32,092 nt of DNA from Planctomycetaceae bacterium (GTDB lineage: Bacteria; Planctomycetota; Planctomycetia; Planctomycetales; Planctomycetaceae): assembly GCA_014762625.1 (NCBI GenBank), contig JABURQ010000102.1:1-32092 (forward strand). Direction: 5' to 3'. Positions within the stretch are counted from its first letter, which is position 1. Each line of letters starts with the position of its first letter. Shown piece after piece: positions 12,456 to 31,844 of this stretch. The translations under genes and the position numbers were made by a program. A model generated the notes under the pieces. The model was not told the origin of the DNA. It was given only the letters and a program-made list of their open reading frames with translations, and ran no database searches.

Positions 12456-13472
12456 CTATCCCAATTCCACTTGCATGGCATCTGCCACGCGCTGGCACAG
12501 CTTCATCGTCTCACGAAATGTTTGTGGATCCAGTGATTGGGCTCCGTCGCTCATTGCTTCGGAGGGTTGGGGATGGACTTCGACGATCAATCCGTCCGCT
12601 CCCGCTGCGATGGCCGCCGCGCACATCGACGGAACCAGAGACGCTTTACCGGTTCCGTGACTCGGATCGATCACCACCGGAAGGTGAGTGCGTTCGTGGA
12701 GATAGGGAACCGATGCCAGCGGCAGCGTGAATCGGGTATGCGATTCGAAAGTTCGCACGCCTCGTTCGCAGAGTGCAACCTGTTGATTTCCGGCGTCGAG
12801 AATGTACTCTGCCGCCAACAGGAATTCGTCCATCGTCGCCGACATACCACGTTTGAGCAGGATCATCCTGTCGGTTTCTCCCACCGCTTGCAGGAGCTGA
12901 TAATTTTGCATATTTCGAGCGCCGATCTGAAGGACATCGGCATATTCGGCAACCAGCGGGACATCGGACGGAGTCATTACTTCAGTCACCACCGCCAACC
13001 CGGTTTCTTCGCGGGCCGCGGCTAAAAGTTTGAGCCCTTCTTCTTTGAGTCCCTGGAAAGCGTATGGGCTGGTTCTCGGTTTGAAGGCTCCTCCTCGCAG
13101 GCCGGTCGCTCCCGCCTGCTTGACTTCGCGAGCCGCGGTCATGATTTGTTCTTCGGACTCCACGGAACAGGGCCCCGCGATGACACCGACGTGCCCCCCT
13201 CCCAAGGTTAACCGGAGTGCCTTGAGAACGGTCGGTTCCGGTTTCGCTTCCCGACTGGCGACTTTGTAGGGTGCGAGAATCGGGACGACTTTTTCCACCC
13301 CCGGAAGACTGGCGAGCGTTTCCTGAAAGCCGTTCCGTTCATCACCGATGGCGGCGACGACTGTCCGTTCCTCACCTACGATTACATTCGATCTCAAGCC
13401 CAAAGAATCGACCTTCTGAGCGACCATTGAGACCGTTTCTGTGGAGGCCTCTTTTTTCATCACCACGATCAT
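12456..13472 (-). CDS. aroF: 3-deoxy-7-phosphoheptulonate synthase (DAHP synthase, ACT-like N-domain type)
   Basis: Catalyses condensation of phosphoenolpyruvate with erythrose 4-phosphate, the first step of the shikimate pathway to Phe, Tyr and Trp. The 338-aa product has the N-terminal ferredoxin/ACT-like regulatory domain of the Thermotoga-type enzymes ([10 protein letters not shown] to [10 protein letters not shown], ~1-70) and a TIM-barrel with GPCSVES (100-106), [11 protein letters not shown] (131-141), [19 protein letters not shown] and DPSHGTG, which carry substrate and metal ligands. Length equals that of the known short type I-beta enzymes. ATG 13472 was chosen over an upstream TTG at 13496 because it starts at the domain boundary and follows GACAGG at good spacing; the TTG would lie in the terminator U-tract. 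Regulated very probably by the attenuator upstream. Confidence 0.95.
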
Positions 13473-13494
13473 GATTTCTACCTGTCTGGGAGCC

Positions 13495-13533
13495 AAAAAA
13501 AATCCCCTGAAACCTTATCAAAGATTTCAGGGG
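13495..13533 (-). terminator. Intrinsic terminator in the aroF leader (attenuator)
   Basis: On the minus strand CCCCTGAAATC (13533-13523) pairs with GGTTTCAGGGG (13514-13504), 11 pairs including one U-G, around the loop TTTGATAA, followed by A and eight T (13502-13495). It ends 22 bases before the aroF ATG, too close for an aroF promoter between the two. It therefore controls read-through into aroF. Confidence 0.92.
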
Positions 13534-13562
13534 AGACGATGTAATTTAATCCTGAAACCTTT
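13520..13562 (-). promoter_or_regulatory. Antiterminator pairing in the aroF leader
   Basis: AAAGGTTTCAGG (13562-13551) overlaps the leader-peptide stop codon and can pair with CCTGAAATCTTT (13531-13520): 12 pairs including one G-U. This uses the 5' arm of the terminator, so the two structures exclude each other. The ten-base segment AGGTTTCAGG occurs twice, at 13560-13551 and 13515-13506, which is what creates the choice. Confidence 0.8.
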
Positions 13563-13653
13563 AGTCGAGGTCATACCAGCCATAAAAGAACCCATCGCCA
13601 AAACCGAAGTTCCGGGTCGTGAGGTTTAGAGATGTCTGGCAGGAGATCAACAT
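13561..13653 (-). CDS. aroF leader peptide, rich in Phe, Tyr and Trp (30 aa)
   Basis: A short ORF from ATG 13653 to TAA 13561-13563, too short for normal gene calling. The first half is MLISCQTSLNLTTR; residues 15-30 read NFGFGDGFFYGWYDLD. Seven of residues 16-27 are aromatic: Phe16, 18, 22, 23; Tyr24, 27; Trp26. A GAAAGG ribosome-site-like segment lies 12 bases before the ATG. It begins about 25 bases after the predicted transcription start and its stop codon touches the antiterminator arm. By analogy with pheL/trpL-type leaders, ribosome stalling at these codons when aromatic aminoacyl-tRNA is short should favour the antiterminator and switch aroF on. A real small protein is the alternative. 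Confidence 0.8.
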   Translation of the reverse strand: MLISCQTSLNLTTRNFGFGDGFFYGWYDLD

Positions 13654-13683
13654 GATTCAGAAAAACCTTTCGGAGTTGCCGTT

Positions 13684-13711
13684 ATTATCGCACTGGACGA
13701 ACCCTCGTCAA
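13684..13711 (-). promoter_or_regulatory. Sigma70-like promoter of the aroF leader transcript
   Basis: TTGACG (13711-13706), a 16-base spacer and GATAAT (13689-13684) on the minus strand, eight bases after the stop of the DUF1080 gene. Predicted start near 13677, giving a leader of about 200 bases that contains the leader peptide, antiterminator and terminator. Confidence 0.7.
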
Positions 13712-13718
13712 TTGCCAA

Positions 13719-14504
13719 TTACTCGCTTTGATGCCAGGAGGCAATTTCAGGTTCGCTCAATTTGCGTAATTTGATGTATTCCACCCCACCAGTTGTCTGG
13801 TAGGTCGCGATTCCCAGAGGACACGAGAGCTCCACTTCCGCACGAATCGAGATATCCGTATCGACAATACTCTCATCGATGATCCGTTCCCCATCGATCC
13901 AGGCCAAAATGCGATCGTCCAGCACCATCAACTTGATCACATACCACTCATCCTCCCTAAACAGGCGATAAGAGGTCGTATTATTCTCTGAAGCATCCAT
14001 ACTATCCAGGCTCGACAAGCCACAGACTCCTCCGCCCCAGCCCCCCAGAATCAGGCTGCAAAACGAGTCTTTGACGGGAAATGTCAGTCCGCTGAAAAAG
14101 TCGAGTCCATCCAGGCGGGCGGCTTTCATTTCGATCACATAATTGGATTTCGGAAGCTTCATGGCCCCGTCATACGTGACGCCGGTCATGTAAGCCCCCA
14201 ACTCCATCAGGATCTTGCCGTCCTTAACGTCGACTTCCCCTTGCCCTCCGAAATCGGTCACTTTCCAGTTTTCGAGAGATTTCTGATCGAAGAGACTCAC
14301 CCATTCCGGGGCCGGAAGCGGCTGGGGATGCGTTGCGACCAACGCGGGGGGATGGTTGTCGGCGGAGTGTTTCGGCGTTTCCGCCGACGTTCGTTCCTGA
14401 GTCGTCATCACCAGGAAAGCGGTCATCAGAATTGTTGTCAGCACGAAAATATTTGCGAGGGTTTGCTGGGAGGATCGTGGTGGGTGCTCTGATGAAGAGA
14501 TCAT
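13719..14504 (-). CDS. Membrane-anchored DUF1080 (3-keto-disaccharide hydrolase-like) protein
   Basis: A 261-aa protein with an N-terminal membrane segment (LANIFVLTTILMTAFLVMTT, ~16-35) and then a DUF1080 concanavalin-like beta-sandwich. Typical opening: EWVSLFDQKSLENWKV near residue 85, then EVDVKDGKILMELG, NYVIEMKAARLDGLDFFSGL, EWYVIKLMVLDDRILAWIDG and GVEYIKLRKLSEPE at the end. DUF1080 proteins are abundant in planctomycetes and some act on keto-sugars, but many are uncharacterised. ATG 14504 was chosen because it places the membrane segment near the N-terminus; the longer frame to 14663 runs through an intergenic dyad. The aroF promoter starts right after its stop codon. Confidence 0.75.
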   Translation of the reverse strand: MISSSEHPPRSSQQTLANIFVLTTILMTAFLVMTTQERTSAETPKHSADNHPPALVATHPQPLPAPEWVSLFDQKSLENWKVTDFGGQGEVDVKDGKILMELGAYMTGVTYDGAMKLPKSNYVIEMKAARLDGLDFFSGLTFPVKDSFCSLILGGWGGGVCGLSSLDSMDASENNTTSYRLFREDEWYVIKLMVLDDRILAWIDGERIIDESIVDTDISIRAEVELSCPLGIATYQTTGGVEYIKLRKLSEPEIASWHQSE

Positions 14505-28019: not shown

Positions 28020-31000
28020 CTACTTCAACGTCTGTAGATACGCGATCAGGTCGGCGAGTTGTTCGGGGGTCAGGTTGTTGACGATCCCTTTCGGCATCAT
28101 GGAAGTCGGCTGCTTCACTCGTTCGTCGATGTCGTCCTGAACCAATTCCACCGAGAGGCCGTCGGTCTTCCGCAGCGTCAACGTCTCGGCGGACTCACTC
28201 ACCACAAACCCGGTCACCACTTTGCCGTCGTCGGTGACGAAGGTATAAGTGTCGAAGCCTTGAGCGATCTTCGCATCGGGTTTGAGAATCGATTCGACCA
28301 GTTCCTGCGGCTTGTAACGCTTGCCGATATCGACCAGATGCGGCCCTTTCGGCTGTTGACCGTTGGCGTACGTGTGACAAGCGACGCACGATTGCTGTCG
28401 GAACAGCTTGGCTCCCTGTTCCGGATCACCTTCGGTGTTGAGAGTCTGGGAGAGTGCTTTCTCGAAGGCAATGTTCGCGAGAATATGGGGATCGTTCTTA
28501 TCGACTTCCGGAATCTTGATGGCCACTTCCGGTTCTTTCTGCATCACATCCGCAATCCGATCCGCACCCGGCAATCCATCAATTTTAACCACGTGGCGGG
28601 CGACCTGTTCCAAAATATGCTGTACGGTCTCCTTGTCCGAATCGGTGACCGCGACGCGGATCGTGTCTTCGATTTTCTTCGTCCCGGCCCACGGCTTACG
28701 ATCGTAATACGGCCCGGTCGTATCGGGACGCGTCCCCCACCAACCACCGGTGTAATCCGCTTCCCGGTAAAACAGACGAATCAGCGTCGTGAACAGTTCG
28801 CGTCGCAGCGGCTTATTGTATGTCTTGCTCAGTTTCAGCAGTAATCCATCCACCGCGGCAACATCGTGCATCCCTTTCAGTGCCCACAAGGCGCCTTCCT
28901 GATACGGTCCGGGGATCGCTTTCAGGCACGCTTCGTACGCATTCAATTCTCGCAACGCCTGAACCGCCAGATGCGGCAATACACGACCGGAATCGGGTTG
29001 ATTCCAGGCCGGTTCTTCCGTCGGCAGTTCAGATCCATCCGTCCGCACAGTCAACGGAAGAATCTCTTCCGCGACATCGGTCTTTCCGAGTCGCCCCAGA
29101 CTGATGAGACCCTGAGCCCGCACGCGCGGGTTTTCATCCGAGAGAGCCTTCACAAACGGCTCGACGGAAACATTTCCCAACTCCGACGTGCGATCGGTCA
29201 ATGCCCGCAGGGCGTATTCGCGTGTCCGTGGTAATTCGACCAGAGCAAGAAGTTGACTTTGAGCGTCCGCGCCTGCGAGTTGCTTCAGGGTGAAGATCGC
29301 CGCCACCATTCCCGCTTCAGTCGTTTCCGGATTCTTCGCCAATGCAACCAGAGAAGAGGTCGTGTTGCCGTCGGCGTCTCGACGCAGGATTTCCCGCTGA
29401 GCGTGAAGCCGGTGCTTGGCACTCGCCGCGTCCAGCAGGGCCACCAGTTCATCATTGCTCAGTGCGGACAATACCGGGAACGGTTTGGGGAGAAAGTCGA
29501 TGGGCGTGATTTGAGCCACGAACCCGACGTTTGGACCGTCGTATTTGAACTTTCCGTTCTTCCAACTGGAAATATACATCCGCCCGCTGCCGTCCACATC
29601 GAGATCGGTCGGACGGGGAATCTTGACGAACGGCTGCTCGTCGGGCAGGAAGGTCGGTCCCGCGTTGGGAAGCTTATGCATGTAGACTTCACTGCGACCC
29701 CAGTCGCAGGTGTAAAGAGCTTCGTTGTAAGGAGCCGGCCAGCGACTGTCCTGAAAGAACATCACTCCGCAACCGGAACCGCCACCGTAATTCGCCAGCG
29801 GAGGCATGATCTCTTCGCTGAAGTTTTTGTACAACGAGGGATAACCGTAATTCGCGGACTGCATGATGTGCGAGACGCGAATATCCCAGCCGCCGCCGTC
29901 GTTCGTGTTGTCGCGAGTGAAGAGATTCAGATACGGATCGACGGCGATATCCACAATGTTTCGCAGTCCCCAGCAGTAATACTCCATGTCGGTCCCATCG
30001 GGCCGCACGCGAACCACGCCTCCGCCGCGACGAGCGAGCACTTTACCGTCCGTCCCTTTCGCTTCGGTGAAGCCGAAGTCACCGACGGCGATGTAAATCC
30101 AGCCGTCGATTCCCATACGGATTCCGTTTGTGGTGTGATCGGCTCCACGCTTGTTGACTTCGTCGGTGCTGATGCCGGTGATCAATGTCTGCTCATCATC
30201 GGCTACGCCATCTCCATCGGTGTCCTGGAAGAGCGTCAGAAACGGCGGATGCAGGACCCACAATGAACCGTCGTCGTAAACCAGCCCCCGCGGGTGATCC
30301 ATTTTCGCGAAGACGTTTATCTGGTCGGCCTGACCATCGCCGTCGGTATCGAGACAACGCAGGACTTTGCCGCGTCCCGTTTCTTTCCCCAACGATCCCT
30401 GCTCATCAACGCCGATGAAAACCTCTCCCGTCGGAGCCGCCGTCACACAGACCGGGTAATTCACTTCCGGCGGAATGCCGAACAGCGTCGCCTGAAAACC
30501 ATCCGGCACCTGAACGTCGGCCAGCGTTCCCGATTTCATATCCGGCTTGCGGGGATTCTTCGGTAACTGGGGGAGTTTTCCCGCCGAGGCTTCGAACTCC
30601 CAGAAACTGGCGAAGGTGTTTCGCGACGATCCGAGGAACGTCACTTTGAGATAACGAGTATCGGGCGCGTCTACCTGGTGTTGGTTGTAGGGGGCTCGCT
30701 TGCTGTTCTGGCTTTGATCGACGAGCAGCTTCCAGCTTTCGCGATCGGCGGAGCCTTCAATTTTGTACTGATAAGCGGCGTTCTCGAATTCCCAGTGAAT
30801 GCGGAGGTCTTTGATGTGGGTCGGTTCTCCGAGATCGACCTCCCACCATTCGTTCTTCGCCGGTCCGTTCGCACACCAGCGAGTTTTTAAATCGCCGTCA
30901 ACCGCCTTGGCGGCGAAGTTTTTCTTGTTACTTTCTTCCGAACTGGCACTCGTGTTTTTCCCAACGGCGACATTGCCCTTCGTGGGAATTTTCTGACCGA

Positions 31001-31844
31001 ACTCGGGAATCGGCTGCACGTTGACGGGAGCTTTGGCGAGGGCTTTGATCTCGGCGTCTGTTTTCTCATTCGTCTTGTGAAAATCTTTTTCCGGATCGCG
31101 TCCCGCCGCCCACAGAATCCCTTTGGTGAGCATGTCGAGATAACGGGGCGCGATCATCGTTTCATTGTAATGACCGACCGTGGTGCAGAAGACGCGCGTG
31201 TCTTTGTTGTACTGATTGGTCCAAATGCAGGTTTGCGGCTCGTTGTCTTTCTGTCGTCGCGCCTGGGCGAGAGGCGTCGCGGTCGGCCACAATTTGACCG
31301 TGTGATAAAGTTCCCCCTTCGGCACTTCCCAACTGTCGCCGAAATCCGACATGATCGCGTGATCCGATTTCAGATTTTCAATTTTATACGCGTAGTGCGG
31401 ACCGTGTCCGGGAGACTGTACGCCGACAAATTCAAACCAATCGTCCGTCCCCGTGCGATAACAGTGCATCGCACAGTGAATGAGGACGGCGGGCGTGCCT
31501 TCTTTGTGCGGCTTGAGAATTCGTCGGACGAATTCTTTATCTTTGACGTGAGCGAAGCATTCGTTATGGACGACCACATCGAAACCTTCCGCCCAATCCG
31601 GATCCTCATAGAGCGGGATTTTCGTGTCGGTCGTGGTGCCTCCCTGATGCACGATCGTCCAAACAATATCAGCCCGAGCGGCGGTCCCCTTAGCAAGGAT
31701 CGCTTTCTGACGTTCGTAATCGTGACAGCAGCCTCCGGTGACCAGCAGCGCTTTAATCGGTCGGGTATCTGCCCCCTGAGCGGCCGTCTCTTTTTGTGCA
31801 ATAAAACAAGTCAGAATCAGAACGGCGACCAGAGAACGCTTCAT
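28020..31844 (-). CDS. Secreted ThuA / discoidin / beta-propeller / HEAT / cytochrome c fusion protein
   Basis: A 1274-aa exported protein (signal peptide ~1-24). Domains in order: ThuA, a glutamine-amidotransferase-like fold (~28-255: ALLVTGGCCHDYERQK, VHNECFAHVKD); F5/8 type C discoidin, carbohydrate-binding (~285-425: ASSEESNKKNFAAKAVDGD, WWEVDLGEPTHIKDLRI); six-bladed PQQ-sugar-dehydrogenase-like propeller (~445-790) with calcium loops DTDGDGQAD and DTDGDGVADD; HEAT-like helices (~810-1110); C-terminal cytochrome c (~1140-1274) with CVACH (Cys1153, Cys1156, His1157) and a distal Met in SMMPKG. This is the PVC-type 'haem-binding membrane-bound dehydrogenase' architecture, probably oxidising sugars in the periplasm and passing electrons to the haem. 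The substrate is unknown. GGGTGATG precedes the ATG. Confidence 0.88.
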   Translation of the reverse strand: MKRSLVAVLILTCFIAQKETAAQGADTRPIKALLVTGGCCHDYERQKAILAKGTAARADIVWTIVHQGGTTTDTKIPLYEDPDWAEGFDVVVHNECFAHVKDKEFVRRILKPHKEGTPAVLIHCAMHCYRTGTDDWFEFVGVQSPGHGPHYAYKIENLKSDHAIMSDFGDSWEVPKGELYHTVKLWPTATPLAQARRQKDNEPQTCIWTNQYNKDTRVFCTTVGHYNETMIAPRYLDMLTKGILWAAGRDPEKDFHKTNEKTDAEIKALAKAPVNVQPIPEFGQKIPTKGNVAVGKNTSASSEESNKKNFAAKAVDGDLKTRWCANGPAKNEWWEVDLGEPTHIKDLRIHWEFENAAYQYKIEGSADRESWKLLVDQSQNSKRAPYNQHQVDAPDTRYLKVTFLGSSRNTFASFWEFEASAGKLPQLPKNPRKPDMKSGTLADVQVPDGFQATLFGIPPEVNYPVCVTAAPTGEVFIGVDEQGSLGKETGRGKVLRCLDTDGDGQADQINVFAKMDHPRGLVYDDGSLWVLHPPFLTLFQDTDGDGVADDEQTLITGISTDEVNKRGADHTTNGIRMGIDGWIYIAVGDFGFTEAKGTDGKVLARRGGGVVRVRPDGTDMEYYCWGLRNIVDIAVDPYLNLFTRDNTNDGGGWDIRVSHIMQSANYGYPSLYKNFSEEIMPPLANYGGGSGCGVMFFQDSRWPAPYNEALYTCDWGRSEVYMHKLPNAGPTFLPDEQPFVKIPRPTDLDVDGSGRMYISSWKNGKFKYDGPNVGFVAQITPIDFLPKPFPVLSALSNDELVALLDAASAKHRLHAQREILRRDADGNTTSSLVALAKNPETTEAGMVAAIFTLKQLAGADAQSQLLALVELPRTREYALRALTDRTSELGNVSVEPFVKALSDENPRVRAQGLISLGRLGKTDVAEEILPLTVRTDGSELPTEEPAWNQPDSGRVLPHLAVQALRELNAYEACLKAIPGPYQEGALWALKGMHDVAAVDGLLLKLSKTYNKPLRRELFTTLIRLFYREADYTGGWWGTRPDTTGPYYDRKPWAGTKKIEDTIRVAVTDSDKETVQHILEQVARHVVKIDGLPGADRIADVMQKEPEVAIKIPEVDKNDPHILANIAFEKALSQTLNTEGDPEQGAKLFRQQSCVACHTYANGQQPKGPHLVDIGKRYKPQELVESILKPDAKIAQGFDTYTFVTDDGKVVTGFVVSESAETLTLRKTDGLSVELVQDDIDERVKQPTSMMPKGIVNNLTPEQLADLIAYLQTLK

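Follow-up and report, generated by a model that had tools for sequence, protein, structure and literature searches.

Why is a DAHP synthase gene in a planctomycete preceded by a 30-codon open reading frame (ORF) crowded with aromatic codons? DAHP synthase supplies all three aromatic amino acids, and a first-pass annotation of this locus had proposed an attenuator leader with a mixed Phe/Tyr/Trp codon set ahead of it. We followed up this proposal in the window, by which we mean the whole 32,092-nt stretch of Planctomycetaceae DNA analyzed (contig JABURQ010000102.1), and in related genomes. Judged from sequence and fold modeling, the leader appears to be best explained as a transcription attenuator of the ribosome-mediated type, sensing Phe, Tyr and Trp as end products (probability roughly 0.85).

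Leader ORF, terminator and downstream gene

The leader ORF (MLISCQTSLNLTTRNFGFGDGFFYGWYDLD*, 30 codons), defined from its translation, relatives and controls, occupies 13561..13653 on the reverse strand and ends in a TAA stop codon. Its translation agrees with the earlier description of four Phe, two Tyr and one Trp within residues 16–27 (F16, F18, F22, F23, Y24, W26 and Y27; 13573..13608, reverse strand), and the sequence agrees with the positions given for the Phe codons (13608-13585) and the Trp codon (13578-13576). No strong Shine-Dalgarno sequence was seen by eye at the leader start. A promoter-like site (TTGACG-16-GATAAT with an extended -10 TG; 13684..13711, reverse strand) has 10/12 consensus matches, and a transcript from it would start near 13677; a promoter scan of the region gave 2 sites versus 1.3 in shuffles, and the assignment of 13711-13684 as the leader promoter is only suggestive.

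On the same strand, the leader ORF is followed by an intrinsic terminator of 14 bp (TCCCCTGAAATCTT-TGAT-AAGGTTTCAGGGGA plus T8; 13534-13495) and then by the start of the DAHP synthase gene (12456..13472), the gene under putative control. The product of this gene comprises a DAHP_synth_1 domain (PF00793) and an N-terminal DAHP synthase ferredoxin-like domain (PF18152), and scored above the cut-offs of the DAHP synthase models NF006421 and TIGR01361. The 5' arm of the terminator (arm 3) lies at 13521..13534, its 3' arm (arm 4) at 13503..13516 and the T8 run at 13495..13502. The candidate antiterminator arm (arm 2, TAAAGGTTTCAGG; 13551..13563, reverse strand) starts at the leader stop codon and is complementary to CCTGAAATCTTTG, within the 5' part of the terminator; the arm 2/arm 3 duplex reached -17.4 kcal/mol, a value equalled by 0/100 shuffled tails. 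The Trp codon is close to this arm, as had been noted, at a distance of 12 bases (arm start 13563) rather than 13. The locus combines an ORF rich in product codons, an intrinsic terminator and, by computed pairing, an antiterminator that would exclude it.

A ligand- or tRNA-binding RNA (riboswitch or T-box), with the ORF being incidental, would likewise work through a terminator that has a competing pairing, and the PyrR-site model gave a weak match at 13495-13574 (17.2 bits at E 5.8, against a gathering score of 54). However, the density of aromatic codons is far above that in the controls described below, and we consider this explanation very improbable. Across the whole window, no match to an Rfam family reached the gathering score, and the six matches to 13400-13760 at E up to 10 were all far below gathering, with neither an amino-acid leader nor a T-box among them; a riboswitch or T-box was discarded on this absence of Rfam support.

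Elsewhere in the window's genome, no dense aromatic ORF was found within 350 nt upstream of a trpE-like gene, of the prephenate dehydratase gene or of L001 (contig C172 of G000), with gene starts set from a plausible Met. L001 encodes another DAHP_synth_1 protein (PF00793, E 3.8e-86). The pattern TTYTWYTWYGGNTGG, the one motif searched, had a single occurrence in this genome, namely in the leader at 13653-13561, which may be the sole aromatic leader of the genome. Also encoded in the window (28020-31844, reverse strand) is a protein of 1274 aa that combines ThuA, F5/8 type C, DUF7133 and cytochrome c domains.

Aromatic-rich leaders upstream of DAHP synthase in relatives

Upstream regions of the same gene were collected from genome contigs and from a class-wide genome search. 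The search, with the DAHP synthase as query (E<=1e-80), matched 314 of 397 genomes; the 83 genomes of the class without a match at this threshold include members of several genera in the family to which the window belongs, and genomes of this kind may use another DAHP synthase. From the contig set, 60 of 80 loci were used and 20 from other or distant groups were excluded, three of which (L062, L069 and L071) have an upstream stretch of 12 codons with five or more aromatics and are taken up in the next section. To these were added 29 loci (the best 30 of the class-wide search minus the window), 40 loci hand-picked across genera and the window itself. The resulting 130 regions were reduced to 119 by removal of 11 duplicates and to 116 by removal of three that were too short.

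To be scored as a leader, a short ORF had to contain five or more F/W/Y within 10 codons and lie no more than 400 nt upstream of the gene. Such ORFs were present in 90 of the 116 regions, window included, compared with 2/116 reverse complements and 56/1160 dinucleotide shuffles; at the stricter density of at least 6 in 10, the counts were 63/116, 0/116 and 11/1160, respectively. The 26 regions below the cut include two (L042 and L082) with such a leader farther upstream and eight with a 4-of-10 ORF followed by a terminator, although a density of 4 of 10 is weak evidence on its own because shuffles gave exactly 4 in 221/1160. In 16 of the 116 regions, we found neither such a leader nor its weaker or farther-upstream form.

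A terminator was located within 95 nt past the leader stop in 86 of the 90 leader-bearing regions, and a terminator score of at least 20 after the leader was reached in 83/90 versus 2/450 mononucleotide-shuffled stretches. In the tail between the aromatic codons and the terminator, the computed pairing with arm 3 was better than in shuffles (p<=0.05) for 68 of these 86 leader–terminator pairs. The spacing between stop codon and arm 3 had a median of 28 nt (10–90%: 20.5–35) where 0–95 was allowed. Thus, the occurrence of an aromatic-rich leader before DAHP synthase is beyond chance.

Leaders in other phyla

Two of the excluded loci, L071 (labeled as a Geobacteraceae MAG) and L069 (labeled as a Thermodesulfovibrio MAG), show the same arrangement as the window and belong, by label, to Thermodesulfobacteriota and Nitrospirota, respectively. 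We examined 30 of the 57 matching genomes of Geobacterales, including L071, and 30 loci among the 43 listed matches of Thermodesulfovibrionales, including L069, with membership in the two orders taken from the labels of L071 and L069.

In Geobacterales, leaders with F, W and Y were found in 30/30 loci examined (e.g., MNSNRFFSAFYFFFWYGFYFRPSARAKV), compared with 0/30 at a density of at least 5 on the reverse strand. A scored terminator was detected in 25/30, a rough count since the terminator chosen automatically for L162 has a poor T run, and its pairing was better than in shuffles in 18/25. In Thermodesulfovibrionales, leaders with at least 6 aromatics were found in 9/30 loci and on the reverse strand in 0/30; 13 of the 30 loci have no start codon at the inferred start, and the more distant enzymes mostly lack a leader. 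Seven of the nine leaders contain all three amino acids and two contain F and Y; eight have a terminator, with significant pairing in 8/8. Because relatives in three bacterial phyla carry it, we regard the device as real, and it is very probably an attenuator that reads aromatic codons.

In L069, at 2264-2338, about 15 nt separate the end of a tRNA-Pro gene from the ATG of the leader's short form (MFKRVFYWFGFFFI), and the two may be on one transcript. L062 (Phycisphaerales) has an aromatic-rich short ORF (MEQFSSEQAGGRAWRFFYYPFM) for which no terminator pair was found.

Codon content and conservation of the leaders

Comparison of codon content across relatives showed that aromatic codons are kept, in line with the earlier proposal: the cluster contains F, W and Y in 73 of the 86 leader–terminator pairs, F and W in 9, and F and Y in 4. 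F is the commonest of the 566 cluster residues (F 275, W 164, Y 127) and forms the last aromatic of the cluster in 68/86, and W occurs in 82/86 clusters, often as WW or WWW. In four loci (L031, L032, L037 and L048), the cluster is without Trp (F and Y) or consists of Phe only; the Phe-only leader of L048 falls below the density cut.

The leaders of the two closest relatives, L004 and L005, are 30 aa long like that of the window, align with it without gaps and share its ATG and stop. Where the window's leader has its seven aromatic residues, L005 is aromatic at all 7 and L004 at 6, and F and Y are swapped at codons 23 and 24 in the window relative to both, so that these positions stay aromatic. 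L004, which belongs to the same genus as the window, has GGA at the position of the window's Trp codon; therefore, Trp is not fixed even within the genus. In a group of 12 closely related sequences, no excess conservation of the aromatic columns was detected (variable in 7/13 versus 11/23 of the other columns).

These changes bear on whether the nascent peptide or its codons matter. A functional, aromatic-rich small protein such as a membrane peptide would fit the translation in that hydrophobic residues gather in the C-terminal half. However, 12/14 N-terminal codons after the ATG differ non-synonymously between the window and L004 or L005, which counts against conservation as an ordinary small protein, and the ORF is followed on its 3' side by a terminator with a competing arm; of the explanations weighed here, this is the least probable. 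Between L004 and L005, which are closer to each other, only 3/14 of these codons differ non-synonymously and the N-terminal half is well kept. An arrest peptide, in which the nascent sequence would stall the ribosome on a ligand instead of codon-wise sensing of tRNA, is an improbable alternative: very similar motifs (FYFWFGFYF) are common to the Geobacterales and Thermodesulfovibrio relatives, but the order, spacing and identity of the aromatics vary widely in Planctomycetes, and the F/Y swaps between close relatives are hardly tolerable for an arrest motif. An attenuator leader with mixed aromatic codons, as first proposed, is supported by the retention of aromatics while the N-terminal half changes.

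It is likely that Phe, Tyr and Trp are all effective in the cell. The competing view, which we consider unlikely yet worth more weight than the other alternatives, is that the attenuator is real and only one or two of the aromatics act, with the other codons being passengers that add little. Such a view could draw on the predominance of F (275/566), on the 13/86 clusters without W or Y, on the missing cluster Trp of L004, and on AroR of Corynebacterium glutamicum, a leader ahead of aroF with the codon series Phe-Tyr-Phe, for which the accessible text describes increased transcription upon Phe limitation and no effect of Tyr availability (PMC11802643). The frequency of W, often in runs, and the presence of all three amino acids in every Geobacterales locus examined argue against passenger codons.

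Modeled effect of ribosome position

In the attenuator as we propose it, scarcity of charged tRNA for Phe, Tyr or Trp would stall the ribosome within codons 16–27, leaving arm 2 free to pair with arm 3, so that the terminator would be blocked and DAHP synthase made. With all three in good supply, the ribosome would reach the last three codons and the stop and cover arm 2, and the terminator would form. The ribosome at the leader end would itself be the off switch, in place of a protector hairpin, and an untranslated leader would be read through.

We modeled partial transcripts ending before arm 4, with the ribosome footprint held unpaired. For a leading edge of 12 nt, arm 3 of the window paired with the tail at 0.78 for A-site codons 2–27, 0.60 at D28, 0.09 at L29 and 0.00 at the stop; when the leading edge was 14 nt, the longest footprint, the values were 0.71 at the last Tyr and 0.20 at D28. 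This profile is flat over the aromatic codons and gives no support, for the window, to the first-pass idea that the strength of the response varies with codon position; nor do the relatives, in which F, W and Y have no fixed order (mean relative positions 0.55, 0.46 and 0.46, respectively, in the 86 pairs). The equal modeled effect of every aromatic codon in the window suggests an OR gate rather than a graded hierarchy. Modeled antitermination was lower at the final Phe and Tyr codons of the Geobacterales leader L162, and codon position could matter in leaders other than that of the window.

Without a ribosome, the pairing was 0.78 in the window and 0.66 on average in the class. The E. coli controls trpL and pheL showed classical behavior under the same model: 0.07 and 0.13 without a ribosome, respectively, as expected of a protector, unlike the 0.78 of the window; 0.32-0.69 at the Trp codons of trpL and mostly 0.65 at the Phe codons of pheL; and 0 at the stop in both. 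The model is rough because hisL, a known attenuator, gave a weak contrast only. No protector of the classical four-arm form (arm 1 with arm 2) appeared in the model of the window, and a default-on leader without a protector is slightly more probable than not. CTGAATC at 13661-13655, a protector candidate picked by eye and from a full-length fold, was rejected, since 0.78 was still obtained without a ribosome when the modeled partial transcripts included these bases.

Pairing at aromatic stalls was higher than at the stop by over 0.1 in 81 of the 86 loci and was never lower by that much, where the stop values (including the 0.00 of the window) count only pairs downstream of the ribosome. When pairs across the ribosome were permitted, the window had 0.44 at the stop and the contrast in the class shrank: aromatic stalls were above the stop by 0.1 in 45 loci and below it in 7, and they were above the lowest tail position in 77/86. 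Antitermination at the aromatic codons was below 0.3 in 9/86 loci, for which the model fails. Ribosome-free pairing was below 0.3 in 7/86 relatives, and the model makes a protector possible in these.

The center of arm 2 lies within the stop-codon footprint in 37/86 loci, which is rarer than in shuffled tails (1116/1720), and among the relatives it lies at a median of 19.5 nt upstream of the stop. Since arm 2 is upstream of the stop in most relatives, the masking step there differs from that of the window; arm 2 would be covered during reading of the last codons and not at the stop itself.

Discussion

Most likely, the leader switches DAHP synthase on when Phe, Tyr or Trp is scarce. Leaders that read more than one amino acid are known, namely thrL (Thr/Ile) and the ilv leaders (Ile/Val/Leu). 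As proposed for the window, a single leader of this kind responds to several amino acids that the controlled pathway produces or supplies, although the pathways are other than that of the window. E. coli trpL and pheL share with the window the codons for pathway products, the antiterminator and the intrinsic terminator; unlike the window, each has one aromatic amino acid as its control set and stands ahead of a terminal branch.

The AroR leader of aroF (DAHP synthase) in C. glutamicum was reportedly described by Neshat and colleagues in 2014. Its Phe-Tyr-Phe series means that the earlier statement that known leaders of DAHP synthase read one amino acid is not quite right (PMC11802643, accessible text), and the accessible part of another source attributes control by Phe and Tyr to the aroR leader (PMC7356990). 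AroR resembles the window in placing an aromatic-codon leader with Phe and Tyr before DAHP synthase, and in AroR stalling is described as raising transcription; it differs in that it has no Trp, comes from an actinobacterium and is reported, in the text accessible, to respond to Phe limitation only, whereas codons for Phe, Tyr and Trp occur side by side in the leaders of Planctomycetes, Geobacterales and Thermodesulfovibrio relatives. In E. coli, according to the same text, the DAHP synthase isozymes are under TyrR and TrpR repression, and the Trp and Phe leaders are on terminal branches (PMC11802643).

Surveys of leaders, each of which was accessible in part, place the locus in a wider frame. 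A 2010 terminator survey describes leader peptide systems as shown until then solely in Proteobacteria and Actinobacteria, to which it adds histidine leaders of bacilli, and aroF, aroG and Planctomycetes are absent from its main text (PMC2965389). According to the accessible text of an Actinobacteria survey, operons for Phe or Tyr showed no conserved structures (PMC1262725). In a Shewanella study, aroF is listed as having an attenuator that senses Tyr-tRNA, with older E. coli work as the reference (PMC2659441, accessible part), and another Shewanella study names six attenuators, with aroF and aroG absent from its accessible text (PMC3223726). Leader genes near structural genes have also been counted with Planctomycetes included, with aromatic or DAHP unmentioned in the portion accessible (PMC4833913). 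A leader with codons for all three aromatic amino acids was not described in the literature searched, from which subscription papers were mostly outside, and this is not proof of absence. As far as searched, the new points are the combination of three codon types, the phyla concerned and the apparent absence of a protector; the kind of device itself is known.

We hold at even odds the broader proposal that default-on three-arm OR-gate leaders, in which a ribosome at the leader end would be the off state, are widespread at the entry to the shikimate pathway in Planctomycetota and in the Geobacterales and Thermodesulfovibrio relatives. Leader-peptide control would then extend to phyla for which the literature searched, mostly without subscription papers, shows none. 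The apparent absence of a protector gives a clear prediction, namely read-through from an untranslated leader. The natural series of leaders with Phe only, Phe and Tyr, Phe and Trp, or all three offers tests of how leader codons tune a common pathway. A DAHP synthase leader with three codon types would let translation itself sum the demand for the three amino acids.
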